Shown here: piece after piece, positions 10,534 to 27,885 of the stretch
Numbering within the stretch: position 1 is the stretch's first letter
Layout: each line of letters starts with the position of its first letter
Assembly: GCA_937928685.1 (NCBI GenBank)
Contig: CALGJU010000155.1
Coordinates: 1-39,032 of the forward strand
Length of the DNA: 39,032 nt
Direction of reading: 5' to 3'
Source of the DNA: an uncultured Granulosicoccaceae bacterium
GTDB taxonomy: Bacteria > Pseudomonadota > Gammaproteobacteria > Granulosicoccales > Granulosicoccaceae
Program-made: the position numbers and the translations under genes
The notes under the pieces: generated by a model
Databases searched by the model: none
Seen by the model: only the letters and a program-made list of their open reading frames with translations
Told to the model about the DNA's origin: nothing

Positions 10534-11496
10534 ATGAGAATAATGCTGGCGCCGATGGAAGGCGTGTTAGATTTTCAGATGCGCAAAATCATGACAACGG
10601 TCTTTGCGTATGATCGTTGTGTCACTGAGTTTATCCGTGTGACAAATGGTTTGTATCCGGACAAGGTGTTCCTTAAATCGTGTCCAGAGCTGTTAACCGG
10701 AGGTAAAACAGAGTCGGGTATACCGGTTTTTGTGCAATTGCTCGGCAGTGACTTAGCGTCGATGGCAGCCAATGCAAAGCGTGCGGTGGAGTTGGGGGCA
10801 TTGGGTATTGATATTAACTTTGGCTGTCCTGCCAAAACCGTTAACCGGCATGGCGGCGGGTCTGCATTATTAAGAACCCCGCACCTTGTACAAGATATTG
10901 TCGCCGCTGTTCGTGACACTGTGGATCCTTCAATCCCTGTCACAGCGAAGATTCGATTGGGCTTTGATCATAGCGACTCATTACTTGAGATCGCGACTGG
11001 CGTAGAGCGCTCGGGTGCGGCCGAATTATGTGTTCATGCACGGACACGATCAGATGGGTATAAGCCGCCAGCGCATTGGACAGAGGTAAAAAAGGTGCGC
11101 TCCGAGCTGAAGATTCCGGTGATTATTAACGGTGAGATTTGGTGTGCAGCAGATGCTGAGAGCGCCTGTGGTGATAGCGAGTGTATTGATATTATGCTGG
11201 GTCGCGGCGCCCTGGCGATGCCGGATCTGGCTAACCAGATCAGAGCAGAGGTAGACAGCCTGGAGTGTCAGGCGCTGGAGTGGCAGGAGGTCCTGATTCT
11301 GGTGGAAGATCTTTTGGCAACGGCGGTGAACATTCCAGCTAAATATGCAGGCAACCGAACCAAGCAGTGGCTAAGTTATCTGATTCGTCAGTACCCGGGA
11401 GCACGTGAGCTGTTTTCAAGCATCAAGCGCTTGCAGGAGATTGATGTGATGAGCGCTGAAATAGAACGTCACAGAAGACTACTTGTACCAGTGTAA
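10534..11496 (+). CDS. dusC: DusC-type tRNA-dihydrouridine(16) synthase
   Basis: A 320-residue FMN enzyme that reduces a uridine of the tRNA D-loop. MLAPMEGV at the N-terminus, NFGCPAKTVNRHGGGSALL with catalytic C98, HARTR and INGEIW are all present. The MEGV form (in place of MAGV/MAGI) and NGEIW (in place of NGDI) point to DusC, which modifies U16, over DusA or DusB. Length matches E. coli DusC (315). It lies 39 bp after znuA on the same strand and may be read through from it, though the functions are unrelated. Confidence 0.88.
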   Translation: MRIMLAPMEGVLDFQMRKIMTTVFAYDRCVTEFIRVTNGLYPDKVFLKSCPELLTGGKTESGIPVFVQLLGSDLASMAANAKRAVELGALGIDINFGCPAKTVNRHGGGSALLRTPHLVQDIVAAVRDTVDPSIPVTAKIRLGFDHSDSLLEIATGVERSGAAELCVHARTRSDGYKPPAHWTEVKKVRSELKIPVIINGEIWCAADAESACGDSECIDIMLGRGALAMPDLANQIRAEVDSLECQALEWQEVLILVEDLLATAVNIPAKYAGNRTKQWLSYLIRQYPGARELFSSIKRLQEIDVMSAEIERHRRLLVPV

Positions 11497-11576: not shown

Positions 11577-12758
11577 TCAGTGAAGATCCGCCGCGCTGTG
11601 GTCAAACGGAAAATCTACCGCCAATGCTGCAGCGGGTTGGGTATTCATCTGGTCAATGTTATGCCTGGTCGTTTTAACTGTGCTGCTAGCGTCAACCGAT
11701 AACGCCAATTCAAGATCAATGGCTTGCGCATGGCAGCTGTTTGCAATAGCGCGCTTGACGGTTGCAACCGTGCAGCTGGAAAACTGTTGTGTGGTGGCAG
11801 AAGATATATAGGGCCACATAACATTGTCTGTCGTCGCTGAGCAGGCTGTATCACTATCGTGAAGTGCACCAAGGTTGTGGGCTATTTCATGCGCGACTAA
11901 TAATATATCGTGTCGGTATTGGGTCGATAAACCCACGTCATAACCGTCTGCTCTGCAGGCGGTGTCTATCCAGGCCAAGCCTACCGGTTCATCGATCGGC
12001 CGGTTGCCAGTGAACAGATGCACCAGACTGATATCAGGGTCCAACAGAGTGGTTTGCATTCGATAATCACGAAAACCACGCAGCATGGTTTCAACCGGCA
12101 CGTTGCCATAGATGAGCGGATCATTTTTAGCATCGGTAATGTTGATCGCTGTTTCTACCTGTAGCGCTAAGCCGAACTCTTCACGGTAGATACCATCGAC
12201 TGAGTTGATCAGAGACAGCGCATACTCAAGACCTTTGCCATTGTGCTGGGCGTTGAATTGACTGTCTACTACAATGCCTATTTTCGCCACATGGGTGATC
12301 TTCTGTGGCTGTGCCGCTTTTCGGGTCGGTCGCGTTCTGGCGTGATTACTTGTTATGGTTATCCGGTGATCGTGTTTGTCAGCTATCGGTGTGATTTTCA
12401 CTGATCCCCCGCCGGACTGCTGCAAGCGGAAACGCTTACCGAAGCGGGATATGACGCCATCCAGTGCATTGTTGCTCTGTGTCAGGCGAACCCAGGAAGT
12501 TGAATCACCTTTGATCTTACCGATATAAGTTTTTACTGGAATCTGACTGGCGACCCCTCGATTGTTCACTACACGCAGATTTTTGGTCACGCGGCTTGGT
12601 CGGAGCATCAAGGTAAGTAACTGACCATTTGCTGACACCTGCATACGCTGTGGGTAGTCCACAGGGCGCTCCTGCGCCGGAGCAAGTGTGGAAGTTGTCA
12701 CGACCGTAAGTACAAGCAAGGCCCTTATTAAGCTGCAGATACCACGGAAGTGCCGCAT
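11577..12758 (-). CDS. Secreted metzincin (M12/reprolysin-like) zinc protease
   Basis: A 393-residue exported protease. An N-terminal signal peptide (basic start, hydrophobic LIRALLVLTVVTTSTLA) ends near residue 29. Residues 30-150 look like a beta-rich prodomain. From about 155 the catalytic domain starts (KIGIVVDSQFN), with HEIAHNLGALHD at 290-301 (zinc ligands H290, H294, H300; catalytic E291) and a Met-turn at M314 (NVMWPYIS). Cysteines at 268, 306, 329 and 342 could form disulfides. No C-terminal sorting domain is obvious. A GTG one codon earlier (12761) is an alternative start. The likely role is extracellular or periplasmic proteolysis. Confidence 0.82.
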   Translation of the reverse strand: MRHFRGICSLIRALLVLTVVTTSTLAPAQERPVDYPQRMQVSANGQLLTLMLRPSRVTKNLRVVNNRGVASQIPVKTYIGKIKGDSTSWVRLTQSNNALDGVISRFGKRFRLQQSGGGSVKITPIADKHDHRITITSNHARTRPTRKAAQPQKITHVAKIGIVVDSQFNAQHNGKGLEYALSLINSVDGIYREEFGLALQVETAINITDAKNDPLIYGNVPVETMLRGFRDYRMQTTLLDPDISLVHLFTGNRPIDEPVGLAWIDTACRADGYDVGLSTQYRHDILLVAHEIAHNLGALHDSDTACSATTDNVMWPYISSATTQQFSSCTVATVKRAIANSCHAQAIDLELALSVDASSTVKTTRHNIDQMNTQPAAALAVDFPFDHSAADLH

Positions 12759-12802
12759 CACTGGTACGCCTGTCAGAAGAAAGGCGGCAGTTTATTGGCA
12801 TA

Positions 12803-17211: not shown

Positions 17212-17462
17212 ATATGACCTCAATGGTTATCAATATTCGATTCGGGTGTGCTGTTAGTAATGCGAAGTGTGTTGAACAATATAACCTTTATAAGTCCGTT
17301 ACAGAAGGGTGGAGGTGTTTAAGGTTTGTGATTGCAGAGTTTTTATACTAATAATAAGATAGTTGTAGACGTTCATGGGTTTGAGGCTGGCGATATGTAT
17401 AGGGAATTACACTGTAGCGGTGGGTATGATTGTGGACGTGCTGTGTCTGTCGGGTGCGCTCA

Positions 17463-20400
17463 ATGAGCCATTGGTTGTCCCGACCGGTAGAGACAATTTT
17501 ATTCAGCGATAAGCCTGACTCACATGATTCAAACAGCGAAGTAAGCGTTGATACGTTAATTGTCGGCTCCGGTTATGGTGCCGCGATGGCAGCGTTGGCA
17601 CTTTGCGAAGACCATCATGCGAAGCCCCGTGAAATCGTCGTGTTTGAACGCGGGGAAGAGTATCTTCCGCAGGATTTTCCAAAAACAATAGGTGATTTAC
17701 CTGGCTTTGCCCCGAGTCGCAATGGAGATTCGTTAACCGGTTTGTGGGATGTGCGCGTGGGGACGCGTGCGGTAAGCGTGACCGGTAACGGTTTAGGGGG
17801 TACCTCGTTAGTCAATGCATCTGTTGCCGTAGCACCCGACAAAGAAACCCTTGATAGCTGGCCAGATGCAGGTGTTGGCATCGGATGGCATAAGCTATTC
17901 ACGCGAAGTTATCCGAAGATAATGCAGCTGCTGGGTGTGTCAGAGCTGGATAGCCCGGAACGCTTCGATAAATATAATGCGCTAAAGCGCACTGTCAGTG
18001 CCCTGGATGCCCAATCTGAAATCCGTTCCGCGCCTGTTGCTATCAGCTTCGATAGTGCCGGCCCCCACAGTGTGAATCATCAACCGTGTAATCACTGCGG
18101 CAATTGTGTTATCGGTTGTCATTCCGGTGCTAAACAATCGCTTAATCTTAATGCATGGCCACTGGCCAGACAAAAGGGTGTTGAGCTCTTTACCGGTGCC
18201 AGCGTGCTACGGCTTGTGCAGCGCAACGATAAATGGTTGGTGTATTGTGCGCTAAGCAATAGTACCGATACCGGGTTTGTGGTCAGTGCGAAACGTGTGA
18301 TTTTAGCTGCTGGCTCAATTGGCAGTACTGAGATCCTACATCGCTCGCTACAAGCACCGGGCACTGAGGTTGAAGACGCTATCCATGAAATACCTCTGCA
18401 ACTTTCATCGTTACTAGGTGAAAAGTTTTCCGCCAATGGCGACGGGCTGATATTTTCAACCGGACAAAGGCACGGTGTGAATGCAGTGGCTGATGTTCCT
18501 GATGAGTCTGCGACGAATCAGGTTGGACCCACGATTGTCGGGTTCTCCCGCACGACAGGTGTGAATGAACCCGCAGGAAAACTAACTATTGAAGACGGGG
18601 CAATTCCCTATCCTATAGCGGAGCTTTGGCGTGAAACCATCACGATGCAAAGTTATATCAATCGTTTTGTAACTGATCGTCGTAGCGCCTGGCACACTGA
18701 TAACAGTGAGCACGATAGTCTTGCTACCTCTGATCAGTTTGCACAGCATAGTCAGGTGTTGCTAACCATGGGGTTTGATGGAAGCCCGGGTAGGTTAGTC
18801 AAGGCAGATTCTGCGGACTATCTGGTGCCGCAATGGCCGGAGCTGCAATCGAATAGCGGTTTCTACTCCAAGCTACATCATGCCTTTAATTCTGTAGACC
18901 CTGAAAAAGCTTTTGATGGTGGTGAGTATCATCCCAATCCTCTATTGCAGCCTTTACCCTCCGCGTTTAGTGCTGTGTTTAAGGGAGCGGATGAAATTCC
19001 CAGGCGTGTTGTCACTGTTCATCCACTGGGTGGTTGTGTGATGGGGGATGACATTGACTCTGGTGTCGTAAATAACAGCGGCCAGGTGTTTAAGCGTGTG
19101 AACGGTGACAAATCTGCGGTCTATGAAAACCTTTACGTGATGGATGGTTCAATACTACCGACAGCAGTTGGTGTAAATCCGATGGTGTCTATTTCTGCAC
19201 TGTCCTATACGCTGGCAAGTCGAATAGCAGGGAGATTGCTTCCCACTGAAACTTCGTTCGAACCGCTGCGGCCGGAAAATCGTGACATACCTCAGCCAGT
19301 GCATTTTAAGTCAGAAGGTAGTGGCAAAAATAAACACACACCGCAGATCAATATCGCCGATAAAAATAAAACCATAAAAGCCAGATTCAATGAAAGATTG
19401 TTGTGGAGCTTAGAAGCCGAGGAGGGCAAACGAGAAAAGCAATTAACAGATATGCAGGCGCTGTTCAGGCATAGATTACCTGCGGATACTCGAACCATCA
19501 TTCTTGATGTAGCGTTTTATTTTGACGATGAGCCTGATGGCGCTATTGCCTATAATAATCCGCTGAATGTCTGGCTGTGTAATCCGGCGGTACCATTGCG
19601 TGCAAAGGCAGCATTAATGGCCAGTGATAAAGCGCTGCTACATGGATCCGGAGATACGCTGGTTCCGACCCCGGTGCTAATGGAATTTAAAGGTAACGTC
19701 ACACTGGGTAGTCGAGACAAGAAAATAAAACCAGGGGGCTTTTACAGAACGGTGCTTAGTTTGCTAAGGTTTGCTTATTACCGGCCGTACGTGGCTGAGA
19801 ACGCCCTTAAATCGGTATTTAAGCGATCAAATAAAACGCCGCAGGCATCTGACCAAACTGATACTGACGGAAGCTTAAAAGACAAACTATCCGGTTTTAC
19901 TCGCATCGCCAGACTGCATACCGACTGGCGGTACCTTGAATATCAGTTCAAGGAGATAACAGAGCAAACACCTCTGACAATTACCGGCAAAAAGAAGCTG
20001 GCTTTTACACCATTGGGTGCTTCAATCTGGGAGTCATTACTTAATCTGCCGACCGTATGGTCGCGTGGCAACACTAACAAAGTAAAGGCTACTTTGGCTG
20101 TTGACTTGCTGAGAATCACGCGTGGGCCTTCACCATTGCAGATAACCGAAACACCCAATGAACCGGCAAGTATTACGGCGATGGTCGGGTTTGGTGCGCT
20201 GCTCGCAAGACTGATTGGCACCACCCATTTCTGGAGTTTTGGTGCACATAACTACAAGCGTTTTATTGGCGAGGTTGAGTTTGATCAGGCGCGAATGAGA
20301 AAACCGCCACAAACCATGTCGTTCATTAAGGACGGCCAGAACCAAACCAGCCTGCCGTTTGAGCTTTACTGTAGTGATGGCACACAATGCACAGCTAATG

Positions 20401-23228
20401 CAAGCGAGGGAGTCTGTAGCGAACAGGCGTTGTCGCGAATGATTCGTTACCGCGGCAGCGACTCTGCGATGCAACCAGCCGTATTGCTGGTGCATGGTCT
20501 GGCGCACAGTAGTGAAATATATTGGCCGGAGCATGTTCGCGAAACCTATGTGGAATTTTTGTTGTCACGCGGTTATGACGTTTGGGTGTTTGATCATCGC
20601 ACCAGCGGCAATACCCGTAAAACTGTCAATAAAGATCATACGTGGGATGAAATTGCACTAATAGATGTGCCGTGGGCAATCAAAACAGTGTTTGACACAA
20701 TCAATAAGGGTAACAACCCGCAAACACCCAGGTTGGTCAATGTGTTTTCACACTGCATTGGTGCGGGTGCTGTGGGCATGGCTGTACTGGCGGGTGAAAC
20801 CAAGCGCTCTGACACCAATAATCTGTCTATGGTGGGTTCATTGATTCCACATGCAGTTACCCCGTGGGTGTTCAGTTCGTGTGAGAACAGAACCAGAGCT
20901 AACACCTGGGGTTTCGTAAAAGATTTTAATTTTCTTGATACGCTTGACCCTCGTGTGCATAACAAGCCTGAGATGATAGATGTTCTGCTTGACAGAATAG
21001 CCACATCAACCATCGACGCTGGTGCCAGGCGACAGTGGCCGTATCTGAAAAATCTACTTAAACGCACGTCATTGGCGAATGAATTTTCCATGGCAATGTA
21101 CTTTCGCTACACCGTGTTCTGGGGGCGGCAGTGGGTGCATGATAACGTCGATGACAAACTAAAGAAACGCTTTGCAACCATGGTAGGAGCAGTGCCGGCT
21201 GCTATATTGCAGCAGACCTTTTTTGGTGTACGGCGCCAACGGTTGGTGGCGCAAAATGCAAACAACCGCTATGTTGTGGAAAGTAACTTCAAAGACTATT
21301 GGACGTTTCCAACGTTTTTTTTGCATGGACAAGAAAACAAAGTGTTTGATGTTGAATCTTCCAGGTTGTCTGCCTTTAGACTGGCACGATTCAGACACGA
21401 AAAAACAGATGCAGAGCACCCGGAAGCGTTCACCATGGCTGATTATGCTCACCATGGGATTTGGCTTAGAACGGTTCCGGCCTATGGTCATATGGATATG
21501 ATGATAGGTAAAAAAGCGTCTACAGATGTCGGTCCCGATATTGATCGGTTTTTTAAAGCGTCTGAACTGCAAAATAAAGCGTGGGATACTCTTGCAGTTT
21601 CCCGCAGCAGTTACTCTGTATTTGAATCGAATTCCGCAGAGCGTGATCCTGACATAGTCGACACTCCGTTAACCCGTACCCGGGCCAGCAAATTTCCGTT
21701 AACGGGGCCGGTGATATCTTATGCAAATAAGGACAGCGTGCGTCTGTGGGTAGAGACCGATGATTACGATACTGAGTTTCCGGTGGGTATAATTATTGAC
21801 ACGGCTGATCAATCAGATCTGTCAATTGAATCGGTATCGGTAGCACAGAAAGATGATTTTCACCGAGGTTGTTTCTGGGTGATTCAAATTAATAACCCTG
21901 GAAACATCACTTCGGATATCACGGTGCGGGTGAAGCACTTTCACGAAGATGAGCAGCGGGCACCTCATTGTAACCCGCTTAGCAATGTCTTAACGAAACC
22001 AGCTGCTTTGCATGCGGGCTCTCAAGATCTGGGGCGTCAGAGGGATATTGATCCAGAGCAGGGTGTGGTGGTGAGCTTGCATGAAATGGGGTGGTTTAAA
22101 CGTTTATATCACGGCGCAGAACCGGATCATAACTCAACGGTGTCGTTTCTTGCGGGGTCGTGTTTGCATCCCGGTTCACCGTTTTCCAGAGATCTGTCTG
22201 ATTCAGTGTTCCGTGGAATCTGGTCGCATATTGATCCTTCAAAGAGTAATTCGACGTCGTCAGCGCCGGACTTTCTATTGCTGCTTGGCGATCAAATCTA
22301 CGCTGATGCGACCGCGGGATTGTTTGATCCCAAGGCACCCTACGAGCGTTTCAGGATGCGCTACCGTGAGGCTTTTGGTGCCAGATATATGCGTCGTGTG
22401 ATGGCACACTTACCGACCTACTTCGTGGTGGACGATCATGCTGTCGGGGATAATTTTTCCGGTATGACTGCAGAACAGTTAATGGATGACGAGGCGGTAG
22501 AGTCGTTTAAAGTGGCTAAGGTAGAGGCAGAAAATTTTCAGACGAAATTTAATAACACCGGTGAGCTTTGGAGTGACTTTGAAGTGAATCGGCAACCGTT
22601 TTTTAGCTTTGATACCCGCTTTGAGCGTAAACTTGCGTTTCCGAAAACTGATCGCAAATCTATTGTCAGTGATGACCAGGCCGGGGCTTTTGAAACCTGG
22701 CTGGCGGCCAACAAAAACAAAACAGCCCTGTTTATTTGTACCGGCTCACCGCTGTTTCCGGTTAAAGCGGAGCATGTGCAGTATCCGGCGTTGGTGCAAC
22801 ATAGTGATACTTTAGTCAGCTATCCGGGGTTTCTTGCGTACCTGGTGGAACAATTGGCGAGCCACCGTTGTGAAAATATCTACCTGCTGAGTGGAGATCC
22901 ACACTTGTCCTGCTGGGGTGAAGGGGTGATTTCCAGCGGCCAGAAAACCATACGGCTCGTCAATGTGGTAGCCTCTGCTTTGAATGCCCCGTATCCGTTT
23001 GCCAATGCGCAAGCAAAAGATTTTGAGTGGGGTGTGAGTCAGGTACTGGAATTGCCTGAAAGTGACATAAAAATTGAATTTACTCAGAGTCTGTTATCTG
23101 AGTCATCGCAACAATTCAGTCGGCTGGATTATGATCCTGAAGCCGGGATTCTGCGAGTCCGGATTTTTTCCGTCACGGGCGAGCAGCTGAGTGATGAGGC
23201 AATAGGATCGTCGCCCCAGTGGTTGTAA
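17463..23228 (+). CDS. 1921-residue fusion: GMC flavin oxidoreductase, middle region, alpha/beta hydrolase and PhoD-like phosphoesterase
   Basis: Residues 30-595 form a GMC oxidoreductase of the cholesterol-oxidase type: FAD motif VGSGYGAAMAA (34-44), four cysteines in CxxCxxCxxxC spacing (C209, C212, C215, C219), HPLGGCVMGD with H520, and N572 in GVNPM. Residues 600-1000 are a beta-rich region I cannot assign. Residues 1005-1370 are an alpha/beta hydrolase: oxyanion loop VHGLAHSS, elbow SHCIGAG with nucleophile C1098, and H1343 in YGHMD. Residues 1540-1921 are PhoD-like: AGSC, LLGDQIYAD (D1610), VDDHAVGDN (D1657, D1658, H1659) and SGDPHLS (D1812, H1814). No signal peptide is evident. ATG 17463 is preferred to TTG 17430. 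The hybrid kinase follows 19 nt downstream. Confidence 0.85.
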   Translation: MSHWLSRPVETILFSDKPDSHDSNSEVSVDTLIVGSGYGAAMAALALCEDHHAKPREIVVFERGEEYLPQDFPKTIGDLPGFAPSRNGDSLTGLWDVRVGTRAVSVTGNGLGGTSLVNASVAVAPDKETLDSWPDAGVGIGWHKLFTRSYPKIMQLLGVSELDSPERFDKYNALKRTVSALDAQSEIRSAPVAISFDSAGPHSVNHQPCNHCGNCVIGCHSGAKQSLNLNAWPLARQKGVELFTGASVLRLVQRNDKWLVYCALSNSTDTGFVVSAKRVILAAGSIGSTEILHRSLQAPGTEVEDAIHEIPLQLSSLLGEKFSANGDGLIFSTGQRHGVNAVADVPDESATNQVGPTIVGFSRTTGVNEPAGKLTIEDGAIPYPIAELWRETITMQSYINRFVTDRRSAWHTDNSEHDSLATSDQFAQHSQVLLTMGFDGSPGRLVKADSADYLVPQWPELQSNSGFYSKLHHAFNSVDPEKAFDGGEYHPNPLLQPLPSAFSAVFKGADEIPRRVVTVHPLGGCVMGDDIDSGVVNNSGQVFKRVNGDKSAVYENLYVMDGSILPTAVGVNPMVSISALSYTLASRIAGRLLPTETSFEPLRPENRDIPQPVHFKSEGSGKNKHTPQINIADKNKTIKARFNERLLWSLEAEEGKREKQLTDMQALFRHRLPADTRTIILDVAFYFDDEPDGAIAYNNPLNVWLCNPAVPLRAKAALMASDKALLHGSGDTLVPTPVLMEFKGNVTLGSRDKKIKPGGFYRTVLSLLRFAYYRPYVAENALKSVFKRSNKTPQASDQTDTDGSLKDKLSGFTRIARLHTDWRYLEYQFKEITEQTPLTITGKKKLAFTPLGASIWESLLNLPTVWSRGNTNKVKATLAVDLLRITRGPSPLQITETPNEPASITAMVGFGALLARLIGTTHFWSFGAHNYKRFIGEVEFDQARMRKPPQTMSFIKDGQNQTSLPFELYCSDGTQCTANASEGVCSEQALSRMIRYRGSDSAMQPAVLLVHGLAHSSEIYWPEHVRETYVEFLLSRGYDVWVFDHRTSGNTRKTVNKDHTWDEIALIDVPWAIKTVFDTINKGNNPQTPRLVNVFSHCIGAGAVGMAVLAGETKRSDTNNLSMVGSLIPHAVTPWVFSSCENRTRANTWGFVKDFNFLDTLDPRVHNKPEMIDVLLDRIATSTIDAGARRQWPYLKNLLKRTSLANEFSMAMYFRYTVFWGRQWVHDNVDDKLKKRFATMVGAVPAAILQQTFFGVRRQRLVAQNANNRYVVESNFKDYWTFPTFFLHGQENKVFDVESSRLSAFRLARFRHEKTDAEHPEAFTMADYAHHGIWLRTVPAYGHMDMMIGKKASTDVGPDIDRFFKASELQNKAWDTLAVSRSSYSVFESNSAERDPDIVDTPLTRTRASKFPLTGPVISYANKDSVRLWVETDDYDTEFPVGIIIDTADQSDLSIESVSVAQKDDFHRGCFWVIQINNPGNITSDITVRVKHFHEDEQRAPHCNPLSNVLTKPAALHAGSQDLGRQRDIDPEQGVVVSLHEMGWFKRLYHGAEPDHNSTVSFLAGSCLHPGSPFSRDLSDSVFRGIWSHIDPSKSNSTSSAPDFLLLLGDQIYADATAGLFDPKAPYERFRMRYREAFGARYMRRVMAHLPTYFVVDDHAVGDNFSGMTAEQLMDDEAVESFKVAKVEAENFQTKFNNTGELWSDFEVNRQPFFSFDTRFERKLAFPKTDRKSIVSDDQAGAFETWLAANKNKTALFICTGSPLFPVKAEHVQYPALVQHSDTLVSYPGFLAYLVEQLASHRCENIYLLSGDPHLSCWGEGVISSGQKTIRLVNVVASALNAPYPFANAQAKDFEWGVSQVLELPESDIKIEFTQSLLSESSQQFSRLDYDPEAGILRVRIFSVTGEQLSDEAIGSSPQWL

Positions 23229-23247: not shown

Positions 23248-25194
23248 TTGAAACATCGTATTAGTCACAGTAATGCCGTAAAATCAGGCAAAAAACCGTC
23301 CTCAAGCGACAACTTATTAATGATTTTATCTGAATTCGTCTGCGGTACAACGGTAGATGCTTTGGAAAAAGATGTTGTTTTACTAGAAACAACAAGAAGA
23401 TCTCAAAGCGTGCGCACACGTCAGAGCCTGCTCTCGCTGGCACTGGTTTCGGTAGTGAGTGTGGGCTATTTATGGGCGCTGTGGGGGTCAAGTAATCCGC
23501 TCTTACTGATTGTATGGACCTGTGCCATAGTGTTTGGCACAGCCTGGCGCTCTGTCATTAGTTATAAAGTACATAGCACTTTGCCCACTGCCAGTGCGCA
23601 GCAATTGGTAAAGAATGAATCCGAGCTGGTTTTTACGGGCATAGCCATACCCTTTACCATTGGCGCGGGCTACTGGCTCTTGTGTGTTCCCGGTGATGAA
23701 AGAACAACACTTGCGGTTGCTTTGTTAAGTTGCATGTACGGCGTCGGATCCACTGTAAATACGGTTGCACAAAAAAGAATGCTGACCTTTATGGTGGTGC
23801 TTAACCTGGGGCAGGGAGTGTTATTTTTTGCCACCCGTGGTATTGCCGTGGATTATGCCGTGGCTATTCAATTAATGGCACTGACTTTCTTACTACTGGG
23901 ATTTGGTAATCGCTTTGAACAGATGTTCGTCGAGTTGGTTAAGTCAGACCTTGAAATTAAATACAAGAACAAAGCGCTCACGCAGAACCGGTTCGAGATT
24001 GAAGCGGCATTGAGTGAAGCGGTAAAAGCGAATAAGTCAAAGAGTCAGTTTCTCGCGGCCGCAAGTCATGATTTAAGCCAGCCGCTGCACGCAATGTCTA
24101 TGTTTATTGGAAACTTAAAGCAAAGCGTTGAGAGCGAAAAGCAGCAAGACCTGGTCAGTAAAATAGAAAACACCGCTGAAATATTACAACAGCAGTTTGA
24201 TGGATTGTTAGATTTATCTCGTTACGACGCAGGTGGTGTGACTGTGCAGAAGCAATCGTTTGATCTACACGCCCTGTGCAACTTACTGGTTGAGAGTGAA
24301 ATGCCCCTCGCCGCTGAGAAAAATCTACAGCTTGTTCTGCGCGGTGAGTCAGTCACTGTCAATACGGATCCTGTTCTACTTGGCCGCTTGATTGGAAACC
24401 TTATAGCCAATGCTATCAAATTTACTGAGGCTGGTACGGTGGAAGTGGAGGTCTTTGAGCAAGATGGTAACGTCCAGCTCAGAGTGGCGGACACCGGGTG
24501 CGGCTTTACCGAAAATGAACAAGAGCGCATCTTTAAAGACTTCGTACAGTTGAGTAATCCGGCGCGTAATCGCAAAAAGGGGGTGGGGCTTGGTTTATCA
24601 ATAGTCAAACGCATTTCTGCGCTTTTAGATGTTGATGTCAGTGTGAAATCTGTTGTCGGGCAAGGGGCAGAGTTTACGCTTAAATTCCCTGAAGATAACC
24701 GTGTGGTGACAAGTATGCACACAGAGCGATCATCCAGCGCGGTGGCCTATCTTGAAAGCATCGCGGAGGATATAAAAGCGGAATCCATTGATCTGACTGG
24801 GTTCAACATACTGCTGGTGGATGATGACCCCAATATTCTTGATGGATTGAAAAGTTACATCAACAGTCGGGATGGAAACGCACTGGTCGCGACTGGCTAC
24901 AAGGAAGCGCTGAAGTTCGCGGAGAGTGGTGAGGTCGATTTCTGTATTGTTGACGATATGCTATGTGAAGAGCACAGCGGCTTAGACTTAGCCAGGCGTC
25001 TATCAAATGATATTGCGATCAAGCGTGTGATTATTGTTACGGGTAATATATTGCCGAAGCGCATTGAAGTGCTGCGATCATCTGGTTTCGGATTCTATTC
25101 AAAACCGTTGTCAGTGGCGAGACTGGATGAAATAATTGGCGAACGGTTGGATCTTGGCCGTTCGGCACCAGCGGTGTTTTTACCGAAAGCGTAA
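23248..25194 (+). CDS. Membrane hybrid histidine kinase with C-terminal receiver
   Basis: A 648-residue sensor. About six membrane helices lie at 60-222 with no large periplasmic loop. A short coiled segment leads to the HisKA domain with H274 in AAASHDLSQPLHAM. The ATPase has an N-box at 384-393, DTGCGF (415-420) and GVGLGLSIV (445-453). The receiver (519-630) has D525-D527, phospho-acceptor D569, T598 and K619. There is no output domain, so signalling must pass to another protein or stop at the receiver. TTG 23248 has AGTAGG 8 nt upstream; ATG 23320 is an alternative with no ribosome site. It lies 19 bp after the fusion enzyme gene, probably in the same operon. Confidence 0.85.
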   Translation: MKHRISHSNAVKSGKKPSSSDNLLMILSEFVCGTTVDALEKDVVLLETTRRSQSVRTRQSLLSLALVSVVSVGYLWALWGSSNPLLLIVWTCAIVFGTAWRSVISYKVHSTLPTASAQQLVKNESELVFTGIAIPFTIGAGYWLLCVPGDERTTLAVALLSCMYGVGSTVNTVAQKRMLTFMVVLNLGQGVLFFATRGIAVDYAVAIQLMALTFLLLGFGNRFEQMFVELVKSDLEIKYKNKALTQNRFEIEAALSEAVKANKSKSQFLAAASHDLSQPLHAMSMFIGNLKQSVESEKQQDLVSKIENTAEILQQQFDGLLDLSRYDAGGVTVQKQSFDLHALCNLLVESEMPLAAEKNLQLVLRGESVTVNTDPVLLGRLIGNLIANAIKFTEAGTVEVEVFEQDGNVQLRVADTGCGFTENEQERIFKDFVQLSNPARNRKKGVGLGLSIVKRISALLDVDVSVKSVVGQGAEFTLKFPEDNRVVTSMHTERSSSAVAYLESIAEDIKAESIDLTGFNILLVDDDPNILDGLKSYINSRDGNALVATGYKEALKFAESGEVDFCIVDDMLCEEHSGLDLARRLSNDIAIKRVIIVTGNILPKRIEVLRSSGFGFYSKPLSVARLDEIIGERLDLGRSAPAVFLPKA

Positions 25195-26114: not shown

Positions 26115-26250
26115 GTGCGTCGCATCTGGAATATCTGTGAAATTAGGTGAGCAATAGTCGCGAGTCGAGGATCGATTGCTTTGCATCCCTTTGTCTACTC
26201 AGCCATCATTTGAGACGGCCGATCCGGCCAGCAACTTGACATGATGTTTG

Positions 26251-27885
26251 ATGCCAGTAGAAGAGTTCGACTATATCATTCTCGGAGCAGGGTCTGCAGG
26301 CTGTGTGCTGGCCAACAGGCTCTCGGAAGATTCGAATAATAAGGTTCTTTTGCTGGAGGCGGGGCCAATGGATCACAGACTTTTGATCCATATGCCAGCG
26401 GGTGTTTACCACGTCTACAAAGACCCCACGATCAATTGGAATTATCTCTCAACCAGGCAGCCAAGCTGCGACGACAGGCAAATTGAACTGCCGCGTGGCA
26501 AGGTGATCGGTGGGTCTTCATCTATTAACTCAATGGTCTATATGCGTGGTCACCCCAAAGACTATGATCGTTGGGCAGAACACGAGGCGCTTGAAGACTG
26601 GAGTTACGCTCAGTGTCTGCCGTACTTTAAACGCTGTGAGGCATCAGACCGTGGTGAGAGCGAGTGGCGTGGCGGTCAAGGGCCGCTGGGGGTGTCGCAA
26701 AGCAAGCTGGATACGCCGCTTTATGATGCCATGTGGCAAGCAGGTGAAGAATCAGGGCAGGGCACATCGACTGACCTCAACGGTTATAAACCGGAAGGTA
26801 TAGCGCGCCTCGATAGCACCACACGCGGTGGCAGACGCTGCAGTGCCGCAGTGGCGCATCTAAAACCGGCGCTGCATCGTAAAAACCTAACTCTCAGAAC
26901 GCGAGCATTTGTACAAAAGGTAGTGCTGGACAATCACCGGGCTACAGGCGTAGTGGTAGAGCATCGTGGCTGTCAATCGACGATACAAGCATCTCAAGCC
27001 GTCATTGTCTCTTGTGGTGCGATTAAATCACCGCAACTGTTGATGCTGTCCGGGATTGGGCCGACAGAAGAACTGCAGGCACATGGCATAGAGGTGAAGC
27101 ATGCGTTACCGGGTGTTGGACGTAATCTGCAAGATCACTTTACTGTCATCACGGCATTTGAGTGCAAGCAGGCCGTGACGCTTTACCATCTGAGAAACCC
27201 AATTAATAAGCTGCGAGCCGGTATGCGATGGATGTTAAATCGTACCGGAGAGGCGGCTTCAAATATCTGGGAAATGGGTGGCCTGGTATATAGCCGCAGT
27301 GATGTCGTGTACCCTGATTTACAGTATCACTTTGCACCGGTATACAGCGTATATCATGGCCGCAGGATCGAGTTGTTTCAGGGTTACCAGCTTAATGTTG
27401 ATAGTTTGCGCCCTTACAGCCGCGGGCAGGTAACGCTTCAGTCTAATGATCCGCAGGCCGCACCTCTGTCTGATTTTAATTATCTGTCTGACCCCCGTGA
27501 TCTACAAAATATGGTTGATGGGTATCAGCGTATGCAGCAGCTATTGCAGCAACCGGCTTTTGAGCCGTACCGTGGTAATCGTCTTGCGCCAGAGCCGTCT
27601 AAGGATTCACAGCGTGAGGTCGAGGACTATATTCGGGCCACGGCCTCTACAGACTATCATCCGTGCGGTACTTGTAAAATGGGGGCCTCTGAAGAGTCAG
27701 TGGTAGACGGGCAGCTGAAGGTACACGGCATGGAAGGTTTGTATGTGGTTGATGCTTCTGTCATGCCTGAAATCGTTAGCGGCAATCTCAATGCACCAGT
27801 GCAAATGATCGCCGAGCGAGCGGCTGATGTCATACTTGGAAAGCCGTTGCTGGCAAAGCAGTATGTTGACTTTCATTTTACTTAG
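26251..27885 (+). CDS. GMC oxidoreductase, choline/alcohol dehydrogenase-like
   Basis: A 544-residue FAD enzyme. GAGSAGCVLANRLSED (12-27) binds FAD. PRGKVIGGSSSINSMVYMRG is the GMC signature 1 region, and a second signature appears in GAIKSPQLLMLSGIG. The catalytic pair is H470 (YHPCGTCKMG) and N514 (SGNLNAPVQMIAERA). It resembles BetA-like enzymes that oxidise primary alcohols, but no betB, betI or choline transporter is adjacent, so the substrate is open. ATG 26251 starts right before the FAD motif; the ribosome site is poor. Its stop overlaps the end of the convergent trmJ gene by 4 bp. Confidence 0.85.
   Translation: MPVEEFDYIILGAGSAGCVLANRLSEDSNNKVLLLEAGPMDHRLLIHMPAGVYHVYKDPTINWNYLSTRQPSCDDRQIELPRGKVIGGSSSINSMVYMRGHPKDYDRWAEHEALEDWSYAQCLPYFKRCEASDRGESEWRGGQGPLGVSQSKLDTPLYDAMWQAGEESGQGTSTDLNGYKPEGIARLDSTTRGGRRCSAAVAHLKPALHRKNLTLRTRAFVQKVVLDNHRATGVVVEHRGCQSTIQASQAVIVSCGAIKSPQLLMLSGIGPTEELQAHGIEVKHALPGVGRNLQDHFTVITAFECKQAVTLYHLRNPINKLRAGMRWMLNRTGEAASNIWEMGGLVYSRSDVVYPDLQYHFAPVYSVYHGRRIELFQGYQLNVDSLRPYSRGQVTLQSNDPQAAPLSDFNYLSDPRDLQNMVDGYQRMQQLLQQPAFEPYRGNRLAPEPSKDSQREVEDYIRATASTDYHPCGTCKMGASEESVVDGQLKVHGMEGLYVVDASVMPEIVSGNLNAPVQMIAERAADVILGKPLLAKQYVDFHFT

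Follow-up and report, generated by a model that had tools for sequence, protein, structure and literature searches.

A single-frame fusion of a GMC oxidoreductase, a Cys-type alpha/beta hydrolase and a PhoD-like phosphoesterase, a candidate lipid-processing module

Enzymes of known structure or mechanism offer points of comparison for each catalytic part of the protein described here. In PHA synthases (PhaC) the catalytic Asp lies in a GxxD motif; in gastric lipase (1k8q) we take the Asp of GGND to be catalytic, and in cholesterol oxidase we take Glu361 to be the isomerase base. For the FAD glucose dehydrogenase of Burkholderia cepacia (BcGDH), the published report gives Cys212, Cys218 and Cys222 as the ligands of a 3Fe-4S cluster (PMC6719666). 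The work on PhoD lists C180, D207, D265, D266, N271, N272 and D436 as ligands, sorts PhoD proteins according to whether the iron ligand is Cys or Asp, with S. chromofuscus phospholipase D on the Cys side, and describes these enzymes as extra-cytoplasmic (PMC4223295). Here, we report a computational analysis of a bacterial gene in which relatives of such enzymes form one protein. The earlier note on this DNA knew of no such architecture, and likewise no paper describing the fusion was found in the open-access literature (most subscription journals lie outside its coverage).

The fusion gene

The window, meaning the whole 39,032-nucleotide stretch analysed, is an entire 39-kb contig and carries the following gene.

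17463..23228, + strand: three-enzyme fusion gene, 1921 aa (frame, Pfam, relatives, dN/dS)

The open reading frame (17430-23228, + strand) encodes 1921 aa when read from its ATG (position 17463) or 1932 aa when read from a TTG, with zero internal stops, and runs in the order GMC oxidoreductase, middle domain (MID), Cys-elbow alpha/beta hydrolase (ABH) and PhoD-like phosphoesterase. All Pfam matches exceed curated cut-offs (GMC_oxred_N, 2.3e-18; GMC_oxred_C, 4.4e-12; Abhydrolase_1, 7.9e-8; PhoD, 4.3e-9), and catalytic motifs are present in the GMC domain (H520/N572), the hydrolase (C1098/H1343) and the PhoD domain (C1567/D1610/D1657-D1658/D1812). Among 57 genomes searched, its own included, co-linear full-length frames occur in G007 (the same sequence place as L013; 81% identity), G005 (56%), G029 (45%) and G033 (41%). 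Against the 81% identical relative, dN/dS is 0.103 overall and 0.07-0.14 per segment, linker included; with the 56% and 45% identical relatives, synonymous sites are saturated. The fusion is a genuine gene under purifying selection throughout: co-linear frames in four relatives and low dN/dS in every segment argue against both chance and an assembly chimera. Pfam order, motifs, relatives and dN/dS thus agree with the original description of a 1921-residue single frame holding three catalytic modules. That an error of assembly or frame joined separate genes is extremely improbable; the source genome is indeed fragmented (77% complete, 332 contigs) and the frame is broken in a few relatives (G073 and Ensifer canadensis T173), but four related genomes and two complete Ensifer plasmid records have full-length co-linear frames, and purifying selection acts along the whole fusion.

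A phage origin was considered and rejected, phage records having given three matches, every one inside the GMC domain. Promoter-like sites number 13 (near the shuffled mean of 10.9) and terminator-like sites 15 (above the mean of 8.1). AlphaFold on fusion residues 590-1440, with an alignment of two sequences, returned a mean pLDDT of 27.3.

Domains of the fusion protein

The N-terminal domain and the motif within it are as follows.

17463..19262, + strand: GMC oxidoreductase domain, cholesterol-oxidase-like, residues 1-600 (FAD motif GSGYG 35-39, catalytic pair H520/N572)
18087..18119, + strand: four-Cys motif C209-x2-C212-x2-C215-x3-C219, possible Fe-S site (conservation, spacing)

GSGYG 35-39, H520 and N572 are invariant in 20/20 GMC members, and the nearest solved relatives of the domain are cholesterol oxidases (profile match 1.2e-45). 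C209, C215 and C219 are found in all 34 compared GMC domains and C212 in 32, missing only from the actinobacterial pair (Arthrobacter and Pseudonocardia). Because the spacing of C209/C215/C219 equals that of Cys212/218/222 in BcGDH, we infer that the motif is a candidate Fe-S electron exit. No cytochrome gene, such as that for the multihaem subunit of Fe-S (DET-type) GMC dehydrogenases, was found among the ten window neighbours scanned. Elsewhere, RoxA-like or MauG-type haem cytochromes, possible electron acceptors, lie near GMC-ABH genes (L090, 10209-12140; L046, 5966-7021; L027, 4071-5120). The window also holds a second GMC enzyme, choline-dehydrogenase-like, 3 kb downstream of the fusion (26248-27885; 689 bits vs the PRK02106 cut-off of 605).

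The hydrolase lies in the third position.

20418..21632, + strand: Cys-type alpha/beta hydrolase, residues 986-1390; C1098, N1292, H1343, D1345 (Pfam, motifs, profiles)

The profile matches both gastric lipase (2e-17) and the lysosomal acid lipase, and to a lesser degree PHA synthase (1.7e-4). The triad positions read Cys-His-Asn: H1343 and N1292 are conserved in 40/40 members and Cys1098 in 39/40, the sole exception (L093) being a 390-residue frame with a stop inside the match; D1345, W1041 and D1068 are also conserved in 40/40. L094, which has no single matching frame, was excluded from this set. When the domain is aligned with 1k8q (gastric lipase), N1292 stands opposite the Asp in the GGND of that enzyme. 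The domain had been described as a Cys-elbow hydrolase with intact motifs; the Cys elbow holds, but the usual catalytic Asp position is occupied by Asn. The Cys nucleophile suggests thioester chemistry, either acyl transfer or thioesterase.

Two alternative readings bear on these domains. Sterol or steroid-ester catabolism, in which the GMC domain and a cholesteryl-ester-hydrolase-like ABH would act on steryl esters or phosphates, draws on the best PDB relatives, cholesterol oxidases and gastric/lysosomal acid lipase. It is very unlikely, given that the fusion scores 110 bits against the curated cut-off of 850 for the NCBIfam cholesterol oxidase model (NF058674), that the Glu361 position is not conserved in the fusion family (the alignment is weak in that stretch), and that steroid-degradation genes were not recognised among the window neighbours scanned. 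A phosphoester step is moreover foreign to the usual sterol route, which to our knowledge has no place for one. On the bit score and, in that weakly aligned stretch, the Glu361 position, the earlier mention of a sterol in particular is not supported. Storage-polyester or hydroxy-acid metabolism, with the Cys-ABH as a PHA-synthase/depolymerase-like acyltransferase and the GMC domain handling hydroxyalkanoate or diol units, is quite unlikely as well. PHA synthase models match 11/24 ABH members, the nucleophile is Cys as in PhaC, and genes for PhaC/PhaE, a CoA-transferase and an iron alcohol dehydrogenase lie near the Rhizobium copy; but the position of the PHA synthase catalytic Asp holds Asn in 40/40 ABH members, the lipase match is the stronger one, PHA genes were not recognised among the other neighbours scanned (part of all), and the phosphoesterase is left unexplained.

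Between the two enzymes lies a further domain.

19263..20417, + strand: MID, unclassified ~385-residue domain, residues 601-985 (homologues by profile)

Pfam and PDB searches gave no convincing match for the MID family, and so lend no support to the earlier suggestion that this region may bind the substrate. It occurs as a stand-alone 197-residue protein in Pseudonocardia, beside a GMC gene and with a Cys-ABH gene immediately upstream (no phosphoesterase is named among the neighbours listed there), joined to GMC in Arthrobacter (profile search), and, in L097-L099, as part of a fusion with a patatin-like phospholipase, where patatin was recognised by Pfam on L099 and L097/L098 are 61-66% identical to L099 over nearly their entire length. 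With GMC, Cys-ABH and patatin as its partners in these bacteria, MID accompanies lipid enzymes. The L097-L099 cluster itself comprises a Cys-ABH, an acetoacetate-decarboxylase-like protein and the patatin-MID fusion, with a GMC gene nearby in L098 and L099, and is perhaps an undescribed lipid operon. Prompted by that gene, MID was compared with acetoacetate-decarboxylase-like proteins and the relationship rejected (hhalign probability 0.3%).

The C-terminal part comprises a linker and the phosphoesterase.

21633..22127, + strand: linker, residues 1391-1555, the least conserved segment (dN/dS by segment)
22128..23225, + strand: PhoD-like phosphoesterase, Cys-ligand subfamily, residues 1556-1921 (C1567, D1610, Y1613, D1657, D1658, D1663, N1664, D1812, H1814)

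The linker is possibly an immunoglobulin-like PhoD N-terminal domain, which is a guess from the sequence. The phosphoesterase scores 36.4 bits with Pfam PF09423 (PhoD; curated cut-off 27), and its profile matches B. subtilis PhoD at 3.2e-17. Measured against the PhoD ligands listed in PMC4223295, the fusion has C1567, D1610, D1657, D1658, D1663, N1664 and D1812, 6/7 identical with N271 replaced by Asp; D1610, the D207 equivalent, was assigned by motif instead of alignment. By hydropathy, no hydrophobic segment that could act as an export signal lies near the N-terminus of the fusion, and the sole segment flagged (at 1102) is inside the hydrolase core.

Fused, split and neighbouring genes

Uninterrupted three-domain frames number nine including the window (eight others), two of which, from Ensifer, are near-identical plasmid copies; four further matching Ensifer adhaerens records are left out of this count. 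Remote examples are found in G178 (2008 aa), G193 (2090 aa) and the Ensifer plasmids (1910 and 1918 aa in our frames; RefSeq WP_205239617.1). G015 carries two pieces at contig ends that resemble one gene, and its contig C72 holds a tenth three-domain frame of 1876 aa that lacks the GMC start as the contig ends there. A separate PhoD frame adjoins GMC-MID-ABH in 7 loci (L021, L022, L023, L026, L027, L028 and L056), among which L023 is truncated where its contig ends, stops separate the GMC-ABH and PhoD parts of L022, and in L027 a 165-residue frame intervenes between GMC-MID-ABH and PhoD. In L022 (G014:C4, ~10950-11210) a short stop-bearing stretch that has inverted ends and by eye looks like a MITE is flanked by GMC-ABH and PhoD in the same frame.

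At E 1e-20, the hydrolase profile search matched 12/369 genomes of the class and 9/398 of the phylum (own genome in both). A tree of 33 GMC-ABH rows resolves three groups with support: the clade that contains the window (5 fused), one with 6 fused members and 7 split ones, and one with 15 two-domain members (the L020 row is incomplete and has a long branch). The fused state requires 3 changes on this tree, of which well supported branches make at least 2 unavoidable, so the parts were fused or separated more than once. In L058 (G006:C184, 5228-5446) ~73 C-terminal codons of the fusion are left, with 37% identity and a stop within the match; the enzyme gene is nearly gone, yet the flanking genes and kinase are still present. 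The gene set is seen in Pseudomonadota, Actinomycetota and Bacteroidota, where annotated members are named only 'alpha/beta fold hydrolase' or 'GMC oxidoreductase'; the many well-studied homologues with the same three domains that the earlier note had named as a refutation were not encountered among the records seen.

Two-domain genes (GMC-MID-ABH) form a set of 15 loci among the matches listed, without L093, a second same-scoring Rhizobium record and a Leptospira record. Among these listed matches, a metallophosphoesterase above the Pfam cut-off is adjacent or one gene away in 5/15 (L053, L087, L088, L090, L091), and four more have weaker support: L047 (PhoD-like, 22.5 bits vs a cut-off of 27; 46.9 bits with our own PhoD profile), L052 (19.5 vs 21.5 bits; RefSeq name metallophosphoesterase), L089 (16.7 vs 21.5 bits; opposite strand, one gene intervening) and L055 (recognised by motifs alone). 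In the remaining 6/15 of the listed matches (L046, L051, L054, L085, L086, L092), no phosphoesterase was recognised within three frames on either side. Nine two-domain genomes contain 67 PF00149 and 9 PF09423 matches in ~41 Mb, from which we calculate a chance expectation of ~0.2 phosphoesterase neighbours within 4 kb of 15 loci; this background is somewhat low, since the L090 gene was missed by the genome search, and the neighbour cases are not all independent, as L053, L087 and L088 are homologous and L087 and L088 share a genus. Together with one from Arthrobacter, the nine neighbouring phosphoesterases sort into six sets that show no BLAST similarity to one another at 1e-3. Arthrobacter plasmid StoSoilB13-1 has GMC-MID, a phosphoesterase-like frame of 608 aa and a Cys-ABH as three neighbouring frames, and the 608-residue frame resembles the L052 protein (33%; by this comparison, not by Pfam). 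Joint action of the GMC, ABH and phosphoesterase activities is well supported, and since other bacteria keep them as separate neighbouring genes, the enzymes probably act together on a lipid. The proposal that all modules share one substrate gains from these separate neighbours and from the unrelated phosphoesterases found in the same place.

A recurrent partner follows the fusion.

23248..25194, + strand: membrane hybrid histidine kinase, recurrent partner (starts 19 bases past the fusion stop codon)

The kinase has about five membrane segments by hydropathy. A kinase with a related sensor domain adjoins the enzyme gene in 12/20 fused or split loci (a count that takes in two partial frames, L015 and G015), and in L016, L017 and L023 the two frames overlap by 4 bases. 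A cyclase-AAA_16 protein takes the kinase's place in five of the 20 (L020, L048, L049, L050, L056), neither is present in L021 and L045, and the kinase of L028 is a different one. Several loci have a response regulator close by (LuxR-type in several relatives), and in the two-domain loci L087 and L088 a response regulator lies next to the enzyme gene with a related kinase beyond. The link of kinase and enzyme is strong but not strict, because the kinase is also found with no enzyme in view (G002, G010, G014:C99 and G015:C246; contig ends limit the view in G002 and G015:C246). The recurrence of the related membrane sensor domain and of the cyclase-AAA protein, the frame overlaps, and the retention of the kinase in G006 beside ~73 enzyme codons would suit a module that makes or destroys a lipid ligand sensed by the adjoining kinase. 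We regard this signal-making role as unlikely, as the kinase occurs where no enzyme is seen and a regulator adjoining its target operon is the commoner arrangement.

The other window neighbours scanned include no obvious lipid genes except one acyl-CoA-thioesterase-like gene. A Reprolysin-like (M12B) metalloprotease gene lies at 11577-12761 of the window, and L014 and L015 have homologues of it close to the fusion. Beside the split module of L028 (9244-10766) are a histidine kinase that lacks membrane segments and a possible haem-sensor protein, which we take to resemble an H-NOX haem sensor.

Proposed function and comparison with known systems

The reading we prefer, at about even confidence, is that the fusion is a lipid-processing (dissimilation) module, probably cytoplasmic, for a hydroxylated phospholipid-like substrate. 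The kinship of the modules with cholesterol oxidase, gastric/acid lipase and PhoD, together with the fusion of MID to patatin in L097-L099, makes a lipid-like substrate plausible, as first suggested. Substrate, reaction order and Fe-S use are what we infer for this module. All modules would act on one amphipathic lipid that bears a hydroxyl group as well as an ester and a phosphate ester. The PhoD-type (Fe/Ca) phosphodiesterase domain would take off the phosphate or head group; Cys1098, activated by His1343, would accept the acyl chain as a thioester and pass it to water or another acceptor; and the GMC domain would oxidise the liberated alcohol, with FAD handing its electrons to a Cys-bound Fe-S cluster, from which they would reach a redox partner and not only O2. 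MID may position or carry the lipid, and the membrane hybrid histidine kinase, with the LuxR-type regulator in several relatives, may control expression or sense the lipid. Several observations weigh against this reading: the 6/15 two-domain loci in which no phosphoesterase was recognised within three frames, the lack of a cytochrome gene among the ten window neighbours scanned, the near absence of obvious lipid genes among the scanned neighbours, the kinases that occur away from the enzyme, and, as a difficulty for metal loading of the PhoD domain, the contrast between extra-cytoplasmic PhoD enzymes and a fusion with no export signal evident by hydropathy. A more ambitious form of this lipid-processing reading, which we put forward tentatively and with some doubt, is an undescribed channelled lipid-dissimilation machine (Fe-S GMC, MID, Cys-His-Asn hydrolase, phosphoesterase) for a hydroxylated phospholipid or phosphorylated terpenoid, in which the same partner acquired unrelated phosphoesterases on several occasions, with repeated fusion and splitting and a dedicated lipid-sensing kinase.

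Domain fusions and conserved gene neighbours reveal which enzymes cooperate, and here a generically annotated gene set becomes a testable pathway in which one protein would carry out an oxidation, cleave or transfer an acyl group, and cleave a phosphoester. Two testable leads come with it: a family of hydrolases, relatives of the acid lipases, whose triad positions read Cys-His-Asn, and a candidate Fe-S site in GMC enzymes that resemble cholesterol oxidase.

Streptomyces cholesterol oxidase (PDB 4u2l/1b4v) shares the GMC fold across most of the domain and the active-site His and Asn, but is a single-domain protein without the four-Cys motif. BcGDH (PDB 6a2u) is a GMC homologue (1.6e-15) with three Cys spaced x5 and x3, whereas most fusion members have a fourth Cys (C212). 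The gastric/lysosomal acid lipases (1hlg, 1k8q, 6v7n) are the closest solved proteins to ABH by sequence and share the HxD motif at the catalytic His; the ABH family departs from their Ser-His-Asp triad, with Cys replacing the Ser nucleophile and Asn the catalytic Asp. PHA synthases share the Cys nucleophile and profile similarity, whereas ABH has Asn at the acid position and shares one protein with GMC and PhoD. The PhoD of B. subtilis and the phospholipase D of S. chromofuscus (PMC4223295) belong to the same Cys-ligand subfamily with conserved metal ligands; the fusion domain differs in its place C-terminal to GMC-MID-ABH, in Asp for the N271 ligand, and in that no export signal is seen. The described record nearest in architecture, WP_205239617.1 (RefSeq, Ensifer sp. 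PDNC004, 'alpha/beta fold hydrolase'), differs from the window fusion in its ~28% identity and in adjoining a cyclase-AAA regulator instead of a kinase, but has the same domain order in a single 1908-residue protein.
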